Below, piece after piece: positions 16,111 to 30,404 of a stretch of DNA of 30,563 bases. Made by a program: the position numbers and the translations under genes. Position 1 is the first letter of the stretch; each line of letters starts with the position of its first letter. Source of the DNA: a virus; the IMG/VR virus record IMGVR_UViG_3300008219_000060, positions 1 through 30,563 of that record; one strand, given 5' to 3'. The notes beneath the pieces were generated by a model. The model was not told where the DNA came from. It ran no database searches and saw only the letters and a program-made list of their open reading frames with translations.

Positions 16111-16740
16111 ATGAAAAAGGCATTAAATGAATCAACGGTTCGCAAGTTTATGAAGCTTGCTAATCTTGGGAGTCTCACTGAGACCTTTGTTGACAAAACA
16201 GTAAAGGAGGAGGAAGACACCCTCGAAGAGACCGAAGAAGTTACTGAGGGATCAGACACCCTCGAAGAGACCGAAGAAGTTACTGAGGGATCAGACACCC
16301 TCGAAGAGACCGAAGAAGTTACTGAGGAATTAGACGAACTGCCTCCCGAAGAGATGGGGGCGGGACTAGACGAACTGCCTCCGGAAGGGGACACTCTAGG
16401 TGATGTTCCGCCGGAGACTGTTGAGGCTATCGTTGACGCCATCGCAGACGCGCTGGAGTCGGTGACCGGCGTTGAAATTAATGTCGATTCTGCTGGAGGA
16501 GGTGAAGAAGCAGAATTGGACGCAGAGGAGCCGGGCGGCGAGGAGGATCTTCTGGATACTGCGGAGGACGCTCTAGGCGATCCCGCCGGAGAAGAATCCC
16601 TTGAAGAGTGGGACGAGGTAGAAGAGGCTTTAGACGCAGCCGACGTTTCTCTGGAAGAGAAATTTAATCAAGAAGACTTCGTTAATGAAGTGACAAAAAG
16701 AGTTGCGAAGAGACTTTTATCACTTAGTAAGAAGGGATAA
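16111..16740 (+). CDS. Very acidic repeat protein with conserved-looking N-terminal leader
   Basis: A 209-residue protein of unknown family, dominated by Glu and Asp. The start, MKKALNESTVRKFMKLANLG, is a basic amphipathic helix quite unlike the rest. Then a 13-residue unit, DTLEETEEVTEGS, occurs three times from residue 36. DELPPEE and DELPPEG form a shorter repeat. More acidic helices lead to a basic end (VNEVTKRVAKRLLSLSKKG). An acidic middle between two basic helices recalls phage scaffolding or capsid-interior proteins, but that is inference. Similarity in character to the leaders of the two proteins at 18755 and 19108 is noted in the findings. AGGAG precedes the ATG; a terminator follows. 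Confidence 0.85.
   Translation: MKKALNESTVRKFMKLANLGSLTETFVDKTVKEEEDTLEETEEVTEGSDTLEETEEVTEGSDTLEETEEVTEELDELPPEEMGAGLDELPPEGDTLGDVPPETVEAIVDAIADALESVTGVEINVDSAGGGEEAELDAEEPGGEEDLLDTAEDALGDPAGEESLEEWDEVEEALDAADVSLEEKFNQEDFVNEVTKRVAKRLLSLSKKG
16216..16327 (+). repeat. Three tandem 39-base units inside the acidic gene
   Basis: Units at 16216-16254 and 16255-16293 are identical base for base; the third (from 16294) is identical until about 16325 and then diverges. Each is 13 codons and in frame. Perfect identity at silent positions means very recent expansion, and the copy number may vary between related phages. Confidence 0.95.
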
Positions 16741-16809: not shown

Positions 16810-17199
16810 GTGTTAGCGGAAAGTGAAGTTATCAATAGTGCTCTTTGGTTTTTCCTTGGCACGTTATCATATAGATTTATTAGTTCTCTTATTTTCTCTG
16901 CTCGCTCTCTTTTAATTATAGAAGAAACCATTATCCATTGTTTACGCTTAGTAAAATATAGTGACAAATCCTATGAAGCTGCTTTAGATCTGAAAGAGGA
17001 GATCTACAAATCAAATAAAACCTCGGAAGAATTGTTCAAAGAGAGGGAAGCTGATAAACTACTTCGGGATACATGGCGGAACATGGTGATCGTCGCCATA
17101 ATTAGCTCGTGCCCGCGTACACTAAGGGCGGCGATTAAGTTTAATGACTGGGATAGCGCCATGAAATATCTTCGTAAATTTCAAAAGGACATACAATGA
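16810..17199 (+). CDS. Small membrane-anchored protein of unknown function
   Basis: A 129-residue protein. Residues 10-40 (SALWFFLGTLSYRFISSLIF) form one hydrophobic segment, probably a membrane anchor, and a helical, charged cytoplasmic-type part follows, with coiled-coil character around 50-90. No family is recognised. The start is GTG at 16810 after an AAGG, immediately past the preceding terminator. The stop overlaps the ClpP start (ATGA), so it may be a membrane partner of that protease or simply a co-transcribed small phage gene. Confidence 0.72.
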   Translation: MLAESEVINSALWFFLGTLSYRFISSLIFSARSLLIIEETIIHCLRLVKYSDKSYEAALDLKEEIYKSNKTSEELFKEREADKLLRDTWRNMVIVAIISSCPRTLRAAIKFNDWDSAMKYLRKFQKDIQ

Positions 17200-17843
17200 G
17201 TTCGGAAGAAGTAGAAGGGGAAGAAAGAAAGGCCATCGAACAGCTTTTATCATCTCTGATGGGGCAGAGTTCTTCTAGTGATGAAGTTAAGTTAAGGATT
17301 GCGGCGCTCTATGGGGACATAACACAAGAAAAATGTAGCGAAGCGATCTATAACCTACTCTATTTAAAAGAATCCGGGAAAAATATGATGGCGGACCCGG
17401 AGGACCCGAACACAATTTACGTAAGTTACGAACCGGTTGATTTTTACATCTCAACATGGGGAGGATCTGTTGTAGATATGTTTGCGGTCTACGATGTTAT
17501 GAAGATGATGCAAAAAGAGTGTGACGTGAGAACATTTGGTTTTGGTAAAGTTATGTCCGCAGGAGTTATACTCTTGGCAGGAGGTACCAAGGGAGAAAGA
17601 TATGTTGGTGCAAATTGCAGACTTATGATTCACGGGGTTTCTTCGGGGCAGCAGGGCAATATTGACGAATTGCAGAACGAACTGGGGGAGACCAAGTGGG
17701 CACAAAAACAATATATACGAGCCCTTGCCAGGGACTCTAATATGAGTCAAAAACAAATTAGAGATCTTTTTGATAAAAAGACTAATATATACTTTAGTGC
17801 AAAGGAAGCAATCAAATATGGAATTGCTGATTACATCATATAG
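17196..17843 (+). CDS. clpP: ClpP-like serine protease (S14 family) with Asn at the catalytic Asp position
   Basis: A 215-residue ClpP-fold protein. FYISTWGGSVVDMFAVYDVM is the oxyanion and assembly region. S121 in GKVMSAGVILLAGG is the nucleophile and H146 in LMIHGVSSG the base. Where ClpP has its catalytic Asp (TERD before F/Y-x-SA), this protein has K-T-N197 before IYFSA, so the third member would be Asn. Listeria ClpP1 is a known ClpP with Asn there, so activity need not be lost. The first 60 residues are longer than in ClpP and acidic. No Clp ATPase gene is seen. Possible roles are head-protein maturation (some phage prohead proteases are S14 type) or altering host proteolysis. ATG overlaps the previous stop. 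Confidence 0.88.
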   Translation: MSSEEVEGEERKAIEQLLSSLMGQSSSSDEVKLRIAALYGDITQEKCSEAIYNLLYLKESGKNMMADPEDPNTIYVSYEPVDFYISTWGGSVVDMFAVYDVMKMMQKECDVRTFGFGKVMSAGVILLAGGTKGERYVGANCRLMIHGVSSGQQGNIDELQNELGETKWAQKQYIRALARDSNMSQKQIRDLFDKKTNIYFSAKEAIKYGIADYII

Positions 17844-17852
17844 GAGCGAAAG

Positions 17853-18734
17853 ATGGCTTGGTTTAGTAAATTGTTTTATAACAAAAAAAGTTCAAAAAAA
17901 TATGGCTGGTTGCCGTCTTGGTTTGGGCTCACCGGGTTCAACAAAGAACTTATCGAAAGGATTAGACTTTTCCAAGTCGAGTGGGACCTAGCACCAGACG
18001 GACTCGTCGGGCCTCAGACGTATAGAAGGTTGTTTACCGCCAAGGAAGCGAAGAATAAAGCAGAGAATTCAATTATATGCAATGGAATGCAAATTCCAAT
18101 TGCATGGGACAAAGTTAAGATTGATATGATGGACTCTAGTTGTTATAAGAGGTCCACCAAAGCTCGTTATCCTAACATGATTGTTACTCATTGGGATGTA
18201 TGTTTATCAGCGGATTCTTGTAAAAGAGTTTTAGAAAAGAGAAATATTTCTACTCATTTCTGCATTGATAACGATGGTACTATTGTTCAATTAGTGGACT
18301 GCAATGATGTGGCATGGCACGCTGGGATAAGAGCGGTGAACAATAATTCTGTTGGGGTGGACTTTAGTAATGCGTATTATATTAGGTATCAAAAAACTTA
18401 TGTTGCTAGGGGCCACGGAGAACGCCCCATTTTAAACGACAGCATGGTACATGGAAGGAAATTATCTCCCCATCTTGGGTATTATCCTGTGCAAATAGAG
18501 GCCTATAAAGCATTATTGGAAGCACTGCTAGCTCATTATAAAATCGCGGTAGATTATCCTCGCGAACGCTTTGAAGAATTAAATACAAGCATTGATAAAG
18601 ATGCAGCCAAAGGCAAGTTTGATGGCGTTGTATGTCACTACCATCTTACAAAGAGAAAAATCGACACGGCAGGACTAAAGTTAGATGAAATTATTAATGG
18701 TCTAAAAGAGTATCCTGTGGGTTCTAAAGACTAA
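17853..18734 (+). CDS. N-acetylmuramoyl-L-alanine amidase with N-terminal peptidoglycan-binding domain (endolysin)
   Basis: A 293-residue zinc amidase (Amidase_2 type) that would cut the bond between muramic acid and the peptide stem. Residues about 30-62 (ELIERIRLFQVEWDLAPDGL then VGPQTYRRL) match a PG_binding_1 repeat: FQ, DG.VGP.T. The catalytic part shows a first zinc ligand H113 in VTHWD, STHFCIDNDGTIVQLVD (131-148), H156 in VAWHAG, and CHYHLTKRKID (261-271), which carries the last zinc histidine and the catalytic lysine. There is no signal peptide, so it would need a holin or a partner to reach the wall. TAGGAG precedes the ATG. The ClpP gene is 9 bases upstream, and the tagged proteins follow. 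Confidence 0.88.
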   Translation: MAWFSKLFYNKKSSKKYGWLPSWFGLTGFNKELIERIRLFQVEWDLAPDGLVGPQTYRRLFTAKEAKNKAENSIICNGMQIPIAWDKVKIDMMDSSCYKRSTKARYPNMIVTHWDVCLSADSCKRVLEKRNISTHFCIDNDGTIVQLVDCNDVAWHAGIRAVNNNSVGVDFSNAYYIRYQKTYVARGHGERPILNDSMVHGRKLSPHLGYYPVQIEAYKALLEALLAHYKIAVDYPRERFEELNTSIDKDAAKGKFDGVVCHYHLTKRKIDTAGLKLDEIINGLKEYPVGSKD

Positions 18735-18754: not shown

Positions 18755-19111
18755 ATGAAAATTACGAAACAACAACTTAAGCGGATTATCAAGGAAGAGA
18801 TTACAAAACTAAATGAGGGACCGATGGACGGCCTAGACATAGCGTTTAGCAATCTTAATAATTATCTAACATCCCTTGATAGTGGCAAGTGGCCCGACTC
18901 CCGAGGGGATGCGGTGGCGTCCATGAAGGCTATCCAAAGACATGTGTTCAAAACCCCGTCTAACCCAGCCGCAATGGAAAGTATAAATTACTATTCTGGA
19001 CGAATTATGGAGTTCCTAAGATCACACGGGCAAGGGGACCCACAAGGCGCATCCGGGTTTTTTAGACAACTGTTATCGAAACTGACTCTTGCCATGGGGA
19101 GAGAACAATGA
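18755..19111 (+). CDS. Small protein with MKITK N-terminal tag
   Basis: A 118-residue protein. The first 21 residues, MKITKQQLKRIIKEEITKL then NE, form a highly charged amphipathic helix nearly identical to the start of the next gene's product; after LNEG the sequences differ completely. The remainder is an ordinary helical protein with no recognised family. A shared leader on otherwise unrelated proteins points to targeting, for example into the capsid during assembly, with possible later removal. That is inference. GGGAG precedes the ATG by 9 bases, and the stop overlaps the next start as ATGA. Confidence 0.85.
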   Translation: MKITKQQLKRIIKEEITKLNEGPMDGLDIAFSNLNNYLTSLDSGKWPDSRGDAVASMKAIQRHVFKTPSNPAAMESINYYSGRIMEFLRSHGQGDPQGASGFFRQLLSKLTLAMGREQ

Positions 19112-19704
19112 AAATTACAAAATCAAGACTAAAACAAATTATTAAGGAAGAGTTAACTAAAACTCTGAACGAGGAAGTCGAGAGCATTGATCCTGCGATG
19201 ATGCGCTCGGTGAGAGACGCTGATAAAAGATCGTTCTTTAGTGAAACCTCTCAAGACCTTGAATCTGTTGCGGCAGCGATGCTTGGATATAGAATGATTG
19301 ATCATACCAACCCTGCTAAGGTCAAGACTGCAACACAAATGGCAGACCCAAAAGATGTTTTACTATTGGGTGTTACTCCCGAACACATCTATTTCAAGAC
19401 AATGGATGATATCTACTATCGCATGCCAAGACCCGGTGCGGCCCTAAATGAAGCGTTTGAGTCTTGGGACGACGCAGGACCCGACTACGACGACGACAAC
19501 CCACACGAGTTCGTTTTAGACGAACTGGTAACGGCAGCCGTGGACGCAGTAGGCACACTAGCACTTAAAAAGCTTCAAGCAGCTAATGCTCTTAACACCG
19601 TCGAAGGCATGAGTAGTAACGATGTTATTCTCGCTATCGAAGAGCCGTTGATGGATGCACTAACCCCTCTGGCTATAACAATTCATCATCTTGAGAACGA
19701 ATAA
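19108..19704 (+). CDS. Second MKITK-tagged protein, acidic
   Basis: A 198-residue protein. It begins MKITKSRLKQIIKEELTK then TLNEE, matching the leader of the preceding protein at about 15 of the first 20 positions. The body has no match with it. Residues 115-140 are very acidic (DDAGPDYDDDNPHEF), and two predicted helical stretches follow. No family is recognised for the body. Its ATG overlaps the previous stop; the upstream GGGGAGAG is a good ribosome site. It is the last gene before a strong promoter for GroEL. Confidence 0.85.
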   Translation: MKITKSRLKQIIKEELTKTLNEEVESIDPAMMRSVRDADKRSFFSETSQDLESVAAAMLGYRMIDHTNPAKVKTATQMADPKDVLLLGVTPEHIYFKTMDDIYYRMPRPGAALNEAFESWDDAGPDYDDDNPHEFVLDELVTAAVDAVGTLALKKLQAANALNTVEGMSSNDVILAIEEPLMDALTPLAITIHHLENE

Positions 19705-19776: not shown

Positions 19777-21348
19777 GTGACTAAACACTATTCTTCGGGG
19801 AGAGCCCTACATGAAAAACTCCTTGAGGGGATCAATGATCTTGCTGATAATGTTGCTTCTACTCTTGGCCCTCGCGGGCGCAATGTTATTTTACATAAAT
19901 CCGGCCATAGCCCAATTGTTACTAAAGATGGAGTCACTGTTGCCAGCTTCATTAATTTCGATGATCCTATTAAAAACGTAGGAGCCGAAATAATTAAACA
20001 AGCGGCAAGTAATACGAACACTAGCGCAGGGGATGGGACCACCACGTCCACTGTTCTAGCTCGTGCAATCCTGCAACAAGCGCAAAAGTACCTTGTAGCG
20101 GGCTCTTCCCCTGTAGAACTGAAACGAGGGATGGACAGAACAGTAGAGGCGATTGTAGGCAACATCAAGGGCCTGTCCAGACCGGTAGAAACACAAGAGG
20201 ACATTAGACACATCGCCACAATATCTGCAAATAATGATAGTTCGATTGGAGAACTTATAACCATGGCTGTGGACCAAGCAGGAAAAGATGGCGCTATTTC
20301 TGTTGAAGACGGTAAATCAATGGATACCACTCTAGATGTTGTGGAAGGATTTAGATTCGATTCGGGATATTTCTCCAAATCGTTTGTAACGAATCAGCGG
20401 AAGGGCGCAATAAAATATGATAGTCCTATCATTCTCGTGACTGACTACAAGATAGACACTGTAGATGTGATTTACCCTATATTAGAATTAGCTGCCAGGG
20501 ATGGCCGCCCTCTTATTGTCATTGCGGAAGAAGTAGAAGGCCAAGCTTTAGCGGCGTTAATCATGAATTCCACACGAGGCACCATGAAAGTAGCGGCGGT
20601 TAAGGCTCCGTATTATGGAGAGGAGCGCAGGAACACGCTGAAAGATTTGAGTGTGTCAATTGGAGCTACATTTATTTCCCGAGAATCGGGCTTGCGCTTG
20701 ACGGAAGCCAAGCTAGATAATTTAGGTACATGCGATAAAATAGAAGTTATTAAAAATCACACTACTATAGTTGGAGGGAATGGAGATATTGAGGAAATAG
20801 AAGAAAAAATAGAAGCACTTAAAGAAGAGATAAAACAAACCGATGACATACAAGAATGTGAGAGACTCCAAGAGAGAATAACGCGTCTGGCAAGCGGAGT
20901 AGCCATTATTCGTGTCGGCGGCGCTACAGAGGTCGAAATGATTGAGAAAAAGCACCGCGTTGAAGACGCACTAGAAGCAGTTAAATCCGCACAAGAAGAA
21001 GGAATGGTGCCTGGAGGTGCAGTTGCATTGATAAGAGCTTCTCAAGATATAGATTATGTAGAATTTGATAATGAAGACCAACTACTTGGGAAACAAATAA
21101 TTCTTAGTGCGATTGAGGCACCCCTTCGCCAGATGGCGATTAACTGCGGATTATCCCCAGACCTGATTGTTGAGAAAATACTTGCATCGGAAGAAGATAT
21201 GGGTTATGATTTTGTGACAAATAAAATGACTAGCATGATTGACGCCGGGATTATAGATCCTGCTAAGGTTGCAAGAACAGCATTACAAAATGCTACATCT
21301 GTGGCGTCAACGTTGGTGACAACTAATTATGCTGTAATAGAACAATAA
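19777..21348 (+). CDS. groEL: GroEL-type chaperonin, 60 kDa class, lacking the GGM tail
   Basis: A 523-residue group I chaperonin that folds proteins in a double-ring ATP-driven cage. TLGPRGRNVI and SAGDGTTTSTVLARA (D86) bind ATP, and HRVEDALEAVKSA holds the aspartate equal to D398 of E. coli GroEL. EGMVPGGAVALI and EAPLRQMAINCG are the usual equatorial motifs. It ends VTTNYAVIEQ: the flexible Gly-Gly-Met tail that lies in the cavity of bacterial GroEL is absent. GTG start with GCGAGG at 19766-19771. With the GroES-like gene at 2902 it forms a phage chaperonin pair, presumably for folding capsid or fibre proteins too large or too insoluble for the host system, as T4 gp31 and phage EL GroEL do. 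Confidence 0.96.
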   Translation: MTKHYSSGRALHEKLLEGINDLADNVASTLGPRGRNVILHKSGHSPIVTKDGVTVASFINFDDPIKNVGAEIIKQAASNTNTSAGDGTTTSTVLARAILQQAQKYLVAGSSPVELKRGMDRTVEAIVGNIKGLSRPVETQEDIRHIATISANNDSSIGELITMAVDQAGKDGAISVEDGKSMDTTLDVVEGFRFDSGYFSKSFVTNQRKGAIKYDSPIILVTDYKIDTVDVIYPILELAARDGRPLIVIAEEVEGQALAALIMNSTRGTMKVAAVKAPYYGEERRNTLKDLSVSIGATFISRESGLRLTEAKLDNLGTCDKIEVIKNHTTIVGGNGDIEEIEEKIEALKEEIKQTDDIQECERLQERITRLASGVAIIRVGGATEVEMIEKKHRVEDALEAVKSAQEEGMVPGGAVALIRASQDIDYVEFDNEDQLLGKQIILSAIEAPLRQMAINCGLSPDLIVEKILASEEDMGYDFVTNKMTSMIDAGIIDPAKVARTALQNATSVASTLVTTNYAVIEQ

Positions 21349-26394: not shown

Positions 26395-26626
26395 GGCAAC
26401 TATTTCATATGGTCCCGACTTCCACCTATTTGAAGAATGCTTCGATGGGGAAAGCGTGTACCTTGAAGTTGAGAATACGGATTTTGAGGTAGACCCGAAT
26501 AGGGTGGCAGTAAAAATACCTCTTGACATCTGGAATCAAATGCTGGAGGATTACAATGAAAAGAGAAGGATCCCCCTTCTGGGAAAGTCCGGACAGCTTG
26601 AATTAAATTTTCATAAAGGAGAATAA
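26384..26626 (+). CDS. Unknown small acidic protein
   Basis: An 80-residue protein from ATG 26384, with a G6 run at 26373-26378; a GTG at 26378 is possible. Acidic N-terminal half (FEECFDGESVYLEVENTDFE), then VAVKIPLDIWNQMLEDYN. No family recognised. It overlaps the zinc-ribbon gene by 11 bases. Confidence 0.65.
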   Translation: MSTKATISYGPDFHLFEECFDGESVYLEVENTDFEVDPNRVAVKIPLDIWNQMLEDYNEKRRIPLLGKSGQLELNFHKGE

Positions 26627-26627
26627 T

Positions 26628-27128
26628 ATGAAAAAACTATTGATGGCGTTCATAGCGTCTAGTTTACTTATTGTGCCGTCCTCGGGACACGCGGAGAACT
26701 CTATTGGTTTTGCTGCTGGCTCGACTAGAGGATTCGGAGCCACGTATAGGCACCTGCCGGATGCTGGTGCGGAAAGTTCTTTGGGCTGGCAGGTTGCGGG
26801 TCTTCCTTTTATAACGAAAGAGGAGGGGGTGGTTTCCCTAGGAGCCGCCGCACTTTATCTTTTTCATCGTGGCAACGTGGGCTTGGCATACGCATCTTTT
26901 GGCGTTGGCACCGTGGCTGCGTGGAGCAACTGCACGGACGACGAGGACTTTCATTGTGAAGAAGAATCAAATTTTGGCATAGGGGTCGGCCCTGGAATTG
27001 GATTTGAACTACGCTTGGTAGAAAATCTAGGATGGTCGGTTGATGTACCGTTGGCAATATTATTCGCCAACGGTGAATTTGAAGGAGTGTACCCGATTCC
27101 GAATTCGGCACTGGTTTATTACTGGTAG
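26628..27128 (+). CDS. Exported beta-rich protein, outer-membrane-like
   Basis: A 166-residue protein with a clear signal peptide: MKK, a hydrophobic stretch LLMAFIASSLLIV, and cleavage after GHA22. The mature part alternates strands (SIGFAAGSTRGFGATYRHL, GNVGLAYASFGVGTVAAW, FGIGVGPGIGFELRLVENLG) and ends in YYW, an aromatic end residue typical of outer-membrane barrels. It holds two cysteines at about 104 and 112. It could be a small barrel placed in the host outer membrane, for example to block second infections. That role is inferred. AAGGAG precedes the ATG. Confidence 0.75.
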   Translation: MKKLLMAFIASSLLIVPSSGHAENSIGFAAGSTRGFGATYRHLPDAGAESSLGWQVAGLPFITKEEGVVSLGAAALYLFHRGNVGLAYASFGVGTVAAWSNCTDDEDFHCEEESNFGIGVGPGIGFELRLVENLGWSVDVPLAILFANGEFEGVYPIPNSALVYYW

Positions 27129-27191
27129 GTGTCCTGTGCGTATAACAGATAAAAGAAAGAACGCGTTGCGAGCCTGCGGCGGCCTCTTTCT

Positions 27192-27262
27192 CTCTTCATA
27201 GCTTAAGTGAAAGCCCCGGATCGTAACCGGGAAGATGCGAGTATCGAATCTCGTTGGAGAGT
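27192..27262 (+). tRNA. Divergent tRNA-Thr (anticodon CGT)
   Basis: The 71 bases fold as a cloverleaf. Acceptor CTCTTCA (27192-27198) pairs with TGGAGAG (27255-27261), with one G-U pair. T8-A9 are 27199-27200. The D stem is GCTT/AAGC with a 6-base loop. Anticodon stem CCCGG/CCGGG (27215-27219, 27227-27231) surrounds ATCGTAA with anticodon CGT at 27222-27224. The variable loop is AAGAT. The T stem is GCGAG/CTCGT around TATCGAAT. Oddities: no GG in the D loop, no base 26, an eight-base T loop, and no encoded CCA. It is followed by T6. A 7-pair helix (27154-27160 with 27185-27191) lies just before it. 27129-27191 contains no gene. Confidence 0.5.
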
Positions 27263-27289
27263 TTTTTATTCTCGGGAAGGAAATAAAGA

Positions 27290-27607
27290 ATGAGAGTTAA
27301 GGATTTAAAAGCTGGGGACCTATTATCACCAAAACCTGGGTATAACTTTTTAGTGTACTCCGGCTATTATGCCTCTCATGGGTCCGGACGGGACTGTGTT
27401 TTGGAATGCTCCTCCCGACCTGTCAGGATAGGGTCTAGAAGCTTGGGAGGCTCCTTTATCATCTATCTCGGAATGGTTCCCAAAAAAGATACGGGTTTTA
27501 ATAGTTACGAGGCAAGAAGAGAAGTCTTCATTGTTAACACCGGAGAAAAAATGAGAGTCATGCCTGATTCGTGGAGGAACATGGAGAAAGCCGATGCGTG
27601 TAGGTGA
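27290..27607 (+). CDS. Small GDL-motif protein
   Basis: A 105-residue protein beginning MRVKDLKAGDLLSPKPGYNF, then beta strands (FLVYSGYY, CVLECSSRPV, FIIYLGMV, EVFIVNTGEKMRVMP). An all-beta small barrel is likely. AAGGAA precedes the ATG. It overlaps the next gene by 14 bases. Its start and fold type resemble the following small proteins. Function unknown. Confidence 0.7.
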   Translation: MRVKDLKAGDLLSPKPGYNFLVYSGYYASHGSGRDCVLECSSRPVRIGSRSLGGSFIIYLGMVPKKDTGFNSYEARREVFIVNTGEKMRVMPDSWRNMEKADACR

Positions 27608-27815
27608 TCTAGTAAAATACACAGAGGAGTGTATTGAGCGGGATGAGTGGGAGGGCACCAACGGGTATCCTTATATTGGTGTAATAACCCGAAAGAGAGA
27701 AAGAGGTTCCGACCTAACCCACGACGCTTACGACGTAATGTGGAACGACGGCTATGCCGATAGGGCGGAATTTGAGTGGGCGGAGGACTTAGAAGTTGTA
27801 AGTGAAAGTAGGTGA
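27594..27815 (+). CDS. Small MKVGDL-type protein
   Basis: A 73-residue protein beginning MRVGDLVKYTEEC. IGVITRKRE, AYDVMWNDGY and EWAEDLEVV look like an SH3-like barrel (strand, W.DG turn, ED.E end). The first bases after the start (GTAGGTGATCTAGTAAA) are identical to those of the gene at 28930. GGAGA at 27582-27586 is its ribosome site. Function unknown; a host-interacting small protein is possible. Confidence 0.75.
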   Translation: MRVGDLVKYTEECIERDEWEGTNGYPYIGVITRKRERGSDLTHDAYDVMWNDGYADRAEFEWAEDLEVVSESR

Positions 27816-27867
27816 TCTCATCTTAGAATTGTTAAACATAGCAAAAAGGTTTAAATATTTTCCTTGA
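27802..27867 (+). pseudogene. Truncated MKVGDL copy
   Basis: GTG at 27802 opens GTGAAAGTAGGTGATCT, matching the starts of the genes at 28638 and 28930, but the frame ends after 21 residues (MKVGDLILELLNIAKRFKYF then P). Only the first six residues match the family. It looks like the remains of a duplicated gene start, overlapping the end of the preceding gene. Its tail carries the -35 box of the next promoter. Confidence 0.4.
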
Positions 27868-27892
27868 CCTTATCTGGATGTGGGACTATAAT
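27864..27892 (+). promoter_or_regulatory. Strong promoter placed for a leaderless mRNA
   Basis: TTGACC at 27864-27869, a 17-base spacer, then a perfect TATAAT at 27887-27892. The A of the lipoprotein ATG (27899) is seven bases past the -10, where transcription should begin. Confidence 0.7.
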
Positions 27893-27898
27893 ATCAAC

Positions 27899-28069
27899 AT
27901 GAAAACACTAATTATAGCAGCCCTGCTGATGACGGGGTGCGAAACAATCTATCATCATAACACAGTCCATCAAGTTGATGCGGCATATGACGACACTGCG
28001 GATGTCTATGCTGCCGACGGCACCGACGACACTGCGAATGTCTATTGCGACCGAAGGTTTTGTCTGTGA
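27899..28069 (+). CDS. Small lipoprotein
   Basis: A 56-residue protein from ATG 27899. MKTLIIAALLMTGC is a short lipoprotein signal with lipobox LMTGC, lipidated at C14. The mature part is low-complexity and acidic with a repeated DDTADVY/DDTANVY, and ends CDRRFCL, two cysteines that may pair. Asp/Thr/Ala-rich lipoprotein stalks like this recall Myxococcota and related bacteria. No ribosome site is visible and the promoter spacing suggests a leaderless message. It would sit in the host inner or outer membrane; superinfection exclusion is possible but unproven. Confidence 0.7.
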   Translation: MKTLIIAALLMTGCETIYHHNTVHQVDAAYDDTADVYAADGTDDTANVYCDRRFCL

Positions 28070-28130
28070 TATAATGGATAAACAACATTCTTAGGATACG
28101 GGCTTATAATATGGGGTAGGAGAATAAAAA

Positions 28131-28595
28131 ATGGATAAGCAACAAGAACTCGTAGACAAATATCCTGAACTTTTTGAGCACGCCTGGCCTTCCGTAAATG
28201 ACGGATGGCTTCCCTTGCTTGACACTCTTTGCGGAAGGATTGAACACTATGTCAAGTGGAAAGAAAAAGGCGGGGTTATTATCGTTGCAGACGGTGAAGA
28301 GCCGCCGGAACAGGGCAAATGGATGTACCGTTTTTTCTTTTCGCAAATCAAAGAAAAGTTTAGTGGTTTGAGAGCATATAGTTGTGGTGGCGACGATTAT
28401 ATCGGGGGATTGGTTGATCTTGCGGAAGCCCTCTCATATAATATCTGCGAGAACTGTGGCAACGCAGGCAAAGAGCAGCCAACCGGCTGGATCAAAACAC
28501 TATGTGATCCTTGTTTCAATGATTGGGACGACATCAGGAGCGCCAAGTGGGAAGCGGAGAAAGAGCGGCTTGTGAGGGATAAAGCACAAAGTTAG
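28131..28595 (+). CDS. Phage zinc-ribbon protein of unknown function
   Basis: A 154-residue protein. MDKQQELVDKYPELFEHAWP, DGWLPLLDTLC, QIKEKFSGLRAY, LAEALSYNICENCG (C106, C109) and GWIKTLCDPCFNDW (C125, C128) follow the order of a widespread phage family I know only as hypothetical: KYP.LF, DGW..LL, IKEKFG.LR, CE.CG, GW..TLC..C. The four cysteines should bind zinc. TAGGAGA precedes the ATG by ten bases; a TATAAT (28105-28110) lies upstream without a good -35. A near-copy of its first 14 bases occurs at 28074. Confidence 0.8.
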   Translation: MDKQQELVDKYPELFEHAWPSVNDGWLPLLDTLCGRIEHYVKWKEKGGVIIVADGEEPPEQGKWMYRFFFSQIKEKFSGLRAYSCGGDDYIGGLVDLAEALSYNICENCGNAGKEQPTGWIKTLCDPCFNDWDDIRSAKWEAEKERLVRDKAQS

Positions 28596-28602
28596 CTTTA
28601 GC

Positions 28603-28631
28603 TTTATCTTTATGACCCTCGTGCTTATAAT
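28603..28631 (+). promoter_or_regulatory. Promoter placed for a second leaderless mRNA
   Basis: TTTATC at 28603-28608 (weak), a 17-base spacer, then a perfect TATAAT at 28626-28631. The ATG at 28638 is again exactly seven bases past the -10. CCCTCGTGCTTATA (28617-28630) is repeated at 28814-28827 ahead of the tRNA. Confidence 0.55.
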
Positions 28632-28637
28632 ATAGTT

Positions 28638-28805
28638 ATGAAAGTAGGCGACCTAATAAAATTCAGATGTCCCACAAGAACACAAATTAATAAGGTTTTT
28701 CTTATTGTTGAAGGCGAAAAAACGGGAAACTGGTACAAGATTGATGAAACACAGCCCAGTCTCTTTCATAGTAAGAGAGACTTCATCATTGTAAACGAGG
28801 CTTGA
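28638..28805 (+). CDS. Small MKVGDL-type protein
   Basis: A 55-residue protein: MKVGDLIKFRCPTRTQINKV, then FLIVEGEKTGNWYKIDE and DFIIVNEA. It looks like a mini barrel, with the same start as the products at 27594 and 28930. No ribosome site precedes the ATG. The final TGA overlaps the TTGACA of the tRNA promoter. Function unknown. Confidence 0.65.
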   Translation: MKVGDLIKFRCPTRTQINKVFLIVEGEKTGNWYKIDETQPSLFHSKRDFIIVNEA

Positions 28806-28829
28806 CATATTAGCCCTCGTGCTTATAGT
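28802..28829 (+). promoter_or_regulatory. Promoter of the tRNA(CAT) gene
   Basis: Perfect TTGACA at 28802-28807, a 16-base spacer, then TATAGT at 28824-28829. The predicted start is at or next to the mature tRNA 5' end (28836), so very little 5' trimming would be needed. Confidence 0.65.
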
Positions 28830-28835
28830 TATTAA

Positions 28836-28910
28836 TGCGGGGTAGGGTACTGGTAACCCAACAGGCTCATAACCTGTGGCATGTCGGTTCGATTCCGGCC
28901 CCCGCGACCA
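28836..28910 (+). tRNA. tRNA with anticodon CAT (Met elongator or Ile2), CCA encoded
   Basis: A complete cloverleaf. Acceptor TGCGGGG (28836-28842) pairs with CCCCGCG (28900-28906), with a U1-G72 end pair. The D stem is GGGT/ACCC around ACTGGTA. The anticodon stem ACAGG/CCTGT surrounds CTCATAA (CAT at 28868-28870). The variable loop is GGCAT and the T arm GTCGG-TTCGATT-CCGGC, with discriminator A and encoded CCA. It lacks the three G-C pairs of initiator tRNA in the anticodon stem, so it is not fMet. Whether it reads AUG or, after lysidine modification, AUA cannot be settled from sequence alone. Confidence 0.93.
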
Positions 28911-28929
28911 AATATAATTGAGGTTATAA

Positions 28930-29160
28930 GTGAAGGTAGGTGATCTAGTAAAGCGCGACTTTGTGACTCAAGATCAAAAAAGAAGGTTTGAGCGACTCAA
29001 CGGGACACAAACTATTGGTATAATTGTTGGGCTAAATGAAGATATGGTTGCCGTACTTTTCGTTGGACAAACAGAAAGAGTTGTGGTAAGTTCCCAATAC
29101 CTGAGTGTTGTGAATGAACAAGAGCGACCAGGACGCAGGAGGTCCCCGAATGAAAGTTGA
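28930..29160 (+). CDS. Small MKVGDL-type protein
   Basis: A 76-residue protein starting at GTG 28930 with GAGG at 28920-28923: MKVGDLVKRDFVTQDQ, then TIGIIVGLNEDMVAVLFVGQ and ERVVVSSQYLSVV, an SH3-like pattern. The end (QERPGRRRSPNES) is basic and overlaps the next gene. It is the third complete member of the local family. Confidence 0.75.
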   Translation: MKVGDLVKRDFVTQDQKRRFERLNGTQTIGIIVGLNEDMVAVLFVGQTERVVVSSQYLSVVNEQERPGRRRSPNES

Positions 29161-29743
29161 TTTAATGAATGATGATCTCGTTTTTAAGAGAGCCGTCAAT
29201 GGCTGGATTATTGAACGGGTCGTTGATAGTGGAGATGGAGAGCGTCTGGTAACTACCATTTATGAGGACGCAGACCACATCGGAGAGATGAACATTCCTT
29301 CCAACCCGAACGCGGAAAGCCTGGCGAGAGCCATCGCAGAAGAATTGAGTTTCCACTCACAGACCAAGCATCGTGGAGGATTTAAGATACGCTATCACGA
29401 TAAAGGCCGAGAACAAGAGCAAGAAGGACAATTTATGGACGCCTGCTTGGATGATATGCTGGAGAAGAGAAAGGAAATAGATAAGTCTTATAAAGACACC
29501 GAAGAAGAGTTGAAAGAAATGGCCGAGGACAGAGAAGAAAAGTTGTATAAGACAAACATACAAACAACAGAAGACGGAGAATATTTCGTTGAGATCCCGC
29601 AAGCCCTATTGGAGGAGCTTGGCTGGGAAGTTGGTGATGATATGCGAATTGAAGAGACAGAGTTCTGGGATACGATGACTGAACACAAGGGTTTCACAGT
29701 TGCCAACCTCACGAAGAACCCGCAGGCAGATGAAGGTGAATAA
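29150..29743 (+). CDS. Protein with C-terminal AbrB/SpoVT-like domain
   Basis: A 197-residue protein from ATG 29150, chosen for the strong AGGAGG at 29137-29142. The N-terminal half (1-90) has beta strands (DDLVFKRAVNGWIIERVVDS) and an AESLARAIAEEL helix. An acidic coiled coil spans about 95-135. Residues 139-168 (TEDGEYFVEIPQALLEELGW, EVGDDMRIEE) match the swapped-hairpin AbrB/MazE fold: strand, IP..LL..LGW, GD.. . AbrB-type domains bind DNA or act as antitoxins; no toxin gene is adjacent. It may be a phage regulator. It overlaps both neighbours. Confidence 0.75.
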   Translation: MKVDLMNDDLVFKRAVNGWIIERVVDSGDGERLVTTIYEDADHIGEMNIPSNPNAESLARAIAEELSFHSQTKHRGGFKIRYHDKGREQEQEGQFMDACLDDMLEKRKEIDKSYKDTEEELKEMAEDREEKLYKTNIQTTEDGEYFVEIPQALLEELGWEVGDDMRIEETEFWDTMTEHKGFTVANLTKNPQADEGE

Positions 29744-30404
29744 AGTTATAAGTATATTCGCTGCGTGTCTTCTTTTCACGGCTTGTAACGAAACACACAC
29801 CGCCCTGCTGTTAGATATATTTGGAACGACAGCCGAAAGCAAGAAGGCGAAGTTTCTTACATACCCGCCTGGCTGGTATTCCATAGAGAAGTTCGGCGAG
29901 ACACCTCCAAATATGTCGTTTTCTGATCATTTGGGAAACTCGGACGCCGTGTTTCTCTCTGATTATTACCAGCACCCAGAAATTAAACTCTTGCTGCTGG
30001 TGAATGGAACAGGCTGGTGCGATTACTGCCAGGAACAGGCGTGGGAATACGAGGAATTATACGATGAGTTCAGCACCCACGGCCTAGAAATTTTGTATGT
30101 CTTGTCAGAGACCTGGGAATATAACGATTACATATTTGACGACCCCCCGTTGTCTAAATACGATCTCTCCTTTATGGAGAGTTGGAAGGGAGAACTTCCC
30201 TACCCTGTCCTCGCTGATAATTTACAACTATTTGAGTGGTGGGACGGAGAGTTTATGGACACACGGGTCATGCTGATAAAGACAGAGAAGATGACGAACT
30301 GGTATTCAAATAAGGGCTGGCATTACTCTAATCAATATGGTGCTCTACACTGGCTCATTTTCAATGTCCTGACCCCCGATCCGAACTCCGTGTTCTTTGA
30401 ATAA
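29730..30404 (+). CDS. Lipoprotein with thioredoxin-like domain
   Basis: A 224-residue protein from ATG 29730. MKVNKVISIFAACLLFTAC is a lipoprotein signal, with lipidation at C19. A thioredoxin/TlpA-type fold follows: LLLLVNGTGWCDYCQEQAWE has C97-x-x-C100, then LEILYVLSE, LPYPVLADN and TRVMLIKTEKM as the later strands. YPPGWYSIEKFGETPPNMSF before it resembles the lead-in of redoxin lipoproteins of Myxococcota-type bacteria. It would act on disulphides at the periplasmic face of a membrane. A lipid-anchored redox protein is unusual in a phage and may come from the host lineage. Start overlaps the previous gene. Confidence 0.8.
   Translation: MKVNKVISIFAACLLFTACNETHTALLLDIFGTTAESKKAKFLTYPPGWYSIEKFGETPPNMSFSDHLGNSDAVFLSDYYQHPEIKLLLLVNGTGWCDYCQEQAWEYEELYDEFSTHGLEILYVLSETWEYNDYIFDDPPLSKYDLSFMESWKGELPYPVLADNLQLFEWWDGEFMDTRVMLIKTEKMTNWYSNKGWHYSNQYGALHWLIFNVLTPDPNSVFFE

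Follow-up and report, generated by a model that had tools for sequence, protein, structure and literature searches.

The DNA analyzed here, referred to as the window, is a viral record of 30.6 kb from an uncultured marine phage, and it carries genes for an amidase, a ClpP-like protease, GroES/GroEL, the alpha subunit of DNA polymerase III and tail-fibre-like proteins; no head genes lie within this fragment. In gene order and sequence, most of the window is matched by the 145–172 kb region of a close relative, the 185,927-base record G022, which encodes an S77 protease. Directly 3' of an endolysin-like amidase gene (17853..18734, + strand) and directly 5' of a GroEL-like gene (19777..21348, +), which are the fixed left and right borders, respectively, lie two genes, both on the + strand, for proteins of 118 aa (18755..19111) and 198 aa (19108..19704). 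The sequence confirms what the preliminary description had claimed of them, namely that two adjacent genes have near-identical starts and unrelated bodies. Their leaders, MKITKQQLKRIIKEEITKLNE (18755..18817, +) and MKITKSRLKQIIKEELTKTLNE (19108..19173, +), have MKITKxxLKxIIKEExxK(x)LNE in common over 21–22 residues and each match the leader profile with an E-value of 2e-11, while BLAST of one body against the other gave no match. Both leaders end in LNE, which fits the gp21 motif L/I-x-E, and the predicted cuts fall after E21 (LNE/GPMDG, with the slash marking the cut) and after E22 (LNE/EVESI), respectively. The first body has no detectable homologue, and other tagged bodies fill the same slot in relatives; the second is 63–67% identical in three relatives and had no substantial match in Pfam or PHROGs. 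We also noticed that the ClpP-like protease gene (17196-17843), just 5' of the amidase and tagged genes, is kept in relatives.

Searched with a degenerate DNA pattern that encodes the leader, the window gave exactly two matches, both on the + strand at the starts of the two tagged genes, and none when read backwards; for the broader pattern used later, the chance expectation calculated from its degeneracy is ~1e-15 per base. The two DNA copies in the window differ synonymously at 4 of 12 shared codons, so the pair is not a recent DNA duplication. Among 189 distinct DNA copies elsewhere, the shared leader residues use most of their synonymous codons, which argues that selection acts on the peptide. 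For the protein of the gene at 19108, AlphaFold run with four orthologues gave a mean pLDDT of 46. When it was run with 138 tagged proteins, the leader was modelled as a single helix over residues 5–25, with a pLDDT of about 96 over residues 1–20; the leader alone was confident, and the remainder of this model was not reliable.

The preliminary description had also connected an acidic protein encoded at 16111-16740 with the leader. Its start, MKKALNESTVRKFMKLANLGSLTE, is indeed basic and helical and contains LNE, but at residues 5–7, compared to residues 19–22 in the leader, and the leader profile does not find it. We therefore rejected the link: the protein belongs to one orthologous family at one locus in relatives, with an N-terminus of its own that is conserved as MKK(A/T)LNEST(V/I)RKFMKLANI..L(S/T)E. 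This acidic protein has tandem repeats (EETEEVTEGSDTL) and a basic C-terminus and is kept at the same place in relatives.

Scanning of viral contigs with the degenerate DNA pattern yielded at least 120 stretches, and scanning of 84,980 bacterial and archaeal genomes with the same pattern yielded nine, on six contigs of metagenome-assembled genomes. Two of these six contigs are taken as phage, because they hold many leaders and their genomes encode an S77 protease (in one case on the same contig), and we presume that the remaining four, all under 16 kb, are phage too. When 50,697 phage records were searched with the leader by tblastn, the sole match was an uncultured 484-kb phage, and the MKITK pattern had no match in Mel-JY01, immuto, RM378, T4, S-CREM2 or S-SCSM1. 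Cellular genomes and named phages almost entirely lack the leader.

At least 197 distinct tagged proteins were found among the viral contig matches listed and the nine stretches of the genome collection. Of their bodies, 185 from the matches listed had at least 30 residues and fell into at least 158 single-linkage clusters, including 138 singletons. Set against the possibility, named in the preliminary description, that the profile marks one family whose bodies align, the idea of a label survives because the profile lies on at least 158 clusters of non-aligning bodies. Conservation across the 197 proteins ends at residue 22, and there is none from residue 23 onward. It should be noted that the search pattern fixes residues 1–5, 8, 11, 12, 14 and 15 and restricts residues 9 and 13, and so selects for those; residues 7, 10, 16 and 19–22 are also conserved, although they are outside its constraint. 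The nine fully read records have 3 to 26 tagged genes each (leader profile, E < 1e-3), all on one strand within a record, and many back to back. Most tagged genes lie outside the head module. Of 104 profile matches in twelve records, 101 begin at a start residue, and in the other three the leader is briefly extended or its first codon is changed; ORF calling was rule-based, the start sites of some weak matches are uncertain, and many of the records compared are fragments. The bodies are 46–458 aa long, 68% of them are net acidic, and comparison of 138 tagged proteins with Pfam and PHROGs gave few family matches, almost none of known function.

A blind test, in which the 12 residues after Met were compared among all genes of a genome after removal of homologous bodies, also revealed shared starts. 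Similar pairs numbered 42 in G022, 73 in G005, 72 in G017, 384 in G002 and 464 in G009, compared to 1, 2, 1, 4 and 2, respectively, in a control window; some of these pairs are not leaders, such as those from MKVGDLV starts in G022. This test also recovered ipII/ipIII in T4, gp6/gp13/gp154 in S-CREM2 and MKKSQLRQIIKEAL-type starts in Flavobacterium phage immuto, and it found no such leader in Mel-JY01. It further uncovered a second, T4-CTS-like leader class, MKxLLxxWRKFLxE, on unrelated bodies in G022 (26537-29910), G012 (125833-131988), G005 (93254 and 181967-184251), G008 (91531-95247) and G016, with a further locus in G002 (70653). By eye, some second-class bodies resemble ADP-ribosyltransferases (VxYHxT/YHGTS) or 2H phosphoesterases (HVTLxHQS). 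In the 484-kb uncultured phage (LR756508; 13733-17442 of L274), tandem related proteins that start with MxLKxxLxE directly follow the capsid gene; by eye they are ADP-ribosyltransferase-like and reminiscent of T4 Alt.

The leader is exchangeable: in close relatives, different bodies stand behind the leader in one slot with constant borders. This slot lies between the amidase gene (86% identical) and the orthologue of the gene at 19108 (63%). It contains the 118-aa protein in the window, a 206-aa tagged protein in L034 and, in G022, a pair of tagged proteins (111 and 91 aa), and the slot bodies of these three records have no detectable similarity to one another. A second kind of exchange was found with cyanophages. 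In a tagged protein of L086 (5550-6104), a match to phrog_11180 begins only at residue 23 (E 8e-45), and the body is 49% identical over its length to gp113 of cyanophage S-CAM4, which starts with MRDYKELKELCE/A, a T4-like leader that differs from the MKITK leader. The last domain of the L086 body also occurs in S-P4 gp060 (annotated as a structural protein), S-SCSM1 gp29 (annotated as a virion protein) and S-CREM2 gp137 (E 4e-9), for the last of which mass spectrometry of the virion gave 4 unique peptides (PMC10665884). In the same virion list, gp6, gp13, gp14, gp136 and gp154 of S-CREM2 have starts close to MKxFxxFLxE (PMC10665884). No further swap was found for the body at 38061 of G002, and the body at 191164 of G009 gave only weak similarity.

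Several cyanophage proteins deserve mention beside these homologues. S-P4 gp060 (L266 1675-3264), S-SSM5 108 (L268 2035-3240) and S-SCSM1 29 (L265 1717-3270) consist of several small domains strung together with NEA/SEG/TEA-like joints, and one of these domains is a separate tagged protein in phages with the MKITK leader; these three look like cargo polyproteins. S-CREM2 gp12 and gp14 (L271 3905-9047), which are annotated as a Cas9-like nuclease and an APH-like kinase and were detected in the virion by mass spectrometry, have the T4-CTS-like starts LRFASFMAE and KRFDAFLTE.

In T4, leaders of 10–19 residues target internal proteins to the core and are then removed, and gp21 cuts after L/I-x-E (PMC9026906). 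A T4 gp21-type S77 protease (PF03420) was found in 18 of the 21 large tag-bearing records listed and, with G022 (117474-118109), in 19 of 22. The head module has the T4 order of terminase, portal, small genes, protease, small genes, scaffold and capsid protein, where the scaffold (119616-120851 in G022) is named from its position and composition and the capsid and portal were identified separately. Each of 11 records has a capsid protein whose N-terminal propeptide terminates, at the place of the T4 cut, in LLKE or LLRE, and we infer that L-x-E is the cleavage site of these S77 proteases. Among 243 leader proteins, 50% have an [LI]xE ending within residues 20–24, compared to 8, 7 and 5% in three equal downstream windows, and G, A and S are the commonest residues directly after it. 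Part of this excess may reflect descent of the leaders from a common ancestor instead of selection for cleavage. At the expected position, a clean [LI]xE is missing from about half of the leaders, and PFDD or PSND stands there in two orthologues of the gene at 19108. The ClpP-like protease was considered as the processing enzyme, since PHROGs files its relatives as head maturation proteases. It was not adopted, because the leaders terminate in L-x-E and the T4-order head module of near relatives contains an S77 protease of its own.

Close 3' of the protease gene, nine records encode a conserved protein of 128–143 aa (118348-118752 in G022, with eight orthologues) that starts with MKKSELKNIIKECVKEVIFEEG or similar; tblastn found none in named phages. 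Its start, MK(K/N)SELKxII(KP)xVKExxxExxxEEG, aligns with the leader and, compared to the leader consensus MKITKSQLKQIIKEELEKVLNEG, has two residues fewer near the beginning. Profile-profile comparison of the two gave a probability of 54% (E 1e-4), while the control N-termini of the capsid protein, scaffold and protease gave ≤0.2% (E 0.26–1). The resemblance of the leader to the N-terminus of this putative prohead core protein is suggestive, not proof, because about twenty residues carry it. Unlike the leader family, the core protein is one conserved family with one body, and it often has a 4-residue insertion. Leader-like starts also occur in other head-module genes (G020 69503-70911, G021 27092, and G022 117119 and 118115). 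A gene similar to that of ribosomal protein S21 (118762-118977 of G022; 5143-5370 of L272) lies in the head module just after the leader-like core protein, and it is also found in Mel-JY01.

An alternative reading of these observations is that the leader is an uncleaved localisation helix that sends early-acting proteins to the membrane, the replication site or a host protein and has nothing to do with virion cargo. Its modelling as a confident helix with a median net charge of +2 and the position of most tagged genes outside the head module would suit this role. Its hydrophobic moment, however, is hardly above that of shuffles (0.25 vs. 0.23), its conservation stops at L-x-E, leader-like starts lie in the head module beside the protease, and the cyanophage homologue combines a T4-like leader with a domain of a virion protein detected by mass spectrometry; we consider this reading improbable. 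On the same hydrophobic moment, an amphipathic membrane anchor was rejected. Less probable still, and in our judgment quite unlikely, is that the tagged proteins are transient, scaffold-like parts of the prohead core that build the head and are then degraded rather than delivered. Consistent with such a role are the likeness of the leader to the start of the protein beside the protease, the mostly acidic bodies, as in the T4 core proteins gp67 and gp22, and the effect of T4 IPIII on head building (PMC9026906); body lengths of 46–458 aa and the great differences among close relatives in the number and identity of tagged bodies are not those of an essential core part. An ordinary multigene family whose starts evolve slowly, or starts retained because they translate efficiently, would suit the tandem arrays on one strand, which suggest duplication, and the A-rich start codons. 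We consider this very unlikely in view of the use of most synonymous codons for the same residues, the sharp boundary at residue 22 and a body demonstrably common to phages with another leader.

The leader is, in our assessment, probably a capsid-targeting propeptide. The preliminary description had proposed that the leader serves head-internal proteins as an address label or propeptide; the profile on at least 158 clusters of non-aligning bodies, the protease motif, the S77 protease and the cyanophage homologue all favor this proposal, in which docking, cleavage, virion location and injection are the inferred steps. Cleavage is somewhat less certain than targeting, because many leaders lack a clean site. 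In the proposed mechanism, the leader would fold as a single N-terminal helix and dock on the prohead core, probably in the manner of the similar N-terminal helix of the protein encoded beside the prohead protease, and would thereby bring any fused body into the prohead. The S77 (gp21-type) protease would then cut after the terminal L-x-E and free the body inside the head, from which, by analogy with T4, it would probably be injected with the DNA. The new N-terminal peptides predicted after the cut are GPMDGLDIAFSNLNNYLTSLDSGK for the gene at 18755 and EVESIDPAMMR for the gene at 19108.

A broader scenario, to which we give slightly less than even credence, is one of modular delivery, in which an interchangeable docking leader that copies the N-terminus of a core protein loads up to about 26 proteins per genome into the heads of uncultured T4-like marine phages, bodies are traded behind the fixed leader, and the second, T4-like class in some of these phages uses another dock. 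In the literature searched, we found neither a paper describing the leader nor a proteome of a tag-bearing virion. If the capsid-targeting reading is right, this leader would make it possible to single out, with nothing but DNA sequence, those uncharacterized proteins in large marine phages that ride in the virion and are probably injected, and the protein beside the protease gene is a candidate docking partner. Given that few tagged proteins have family matches, the leader would point to many unexplored candidates for roles in host takeover or counter-defence. A further suggestion would be that a separate loading leader arose in each T4-like lineage, all for the same protease motif.

Head propeptides of the phiKZ/SPN3US type have another cleavage motif. 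The motif of SPN3US is A-x-E (PMC10052503), while the third-last residue of the MKITK leader is mostly L, followed by I, M and V. The cultured Microcystis phage Mel-JY01, which is nearest by its capsid protein, lacks the leader. The cultured phage immuto, with an S77 protease and a related capsid protein, has unrelated proteins whose N-termini (MKKSQLRQIIKEAL and MKKSQLREIIRKEL) match this helix except that IT is missing (profile E 6e-5 and 0.004), but, unlike in the phages with the MKITK leader, copies are few and residues 20–22 hold no clear L-x-E. Its genes at 113144 and 102836 have the version nearest to the leader in any cultured phage; the host of immuto is Flavobacterium sp. LMO8. In T4-like cyanophages, MKxFxxFLxE leaders (S-CREM2 gp6, gp13, gp14 and gp154) likewise end in L-x-E and precede unrelated virion proteins detected by mass spectrometry, although they are short and T4-like; comparable to them is the second class, MKxLLxxWRKFLxE, which coexists with the long leader in several phages with the MKITK leader.

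Closest in kind is the T4 CTS of IPI, IPII and IPIII (MKTYQEFIAE/A), with which the MKITK leader shares a short N-terminal position, unrelated variable bodies and an L/I-x-E end for an S77 protease; the T4 lysozyme gene e precedes ipIII and ipII, and the tagged pair of the window likewise adjoins an amidase gene. In contrast to the T4 CTS, the MKITK leader has 21–22 rather than 10–19 residues and no sequence similarity to it, up to 26 tagged genes occur per record rather than a few, and the tagged bodies are mostly acidic, while the T4 internal proteins are basic. Most likely, the MKITK leader works like the T4 CTS but is not a member of it by sequence or length. The kind of leader is already known from the T4 CTS; new are its sequence, how many bodies a genome carries behind it, the replacement of these bodies within one fixed slot, the swap of leaders with cyanophages and the resemblance to a core protein.
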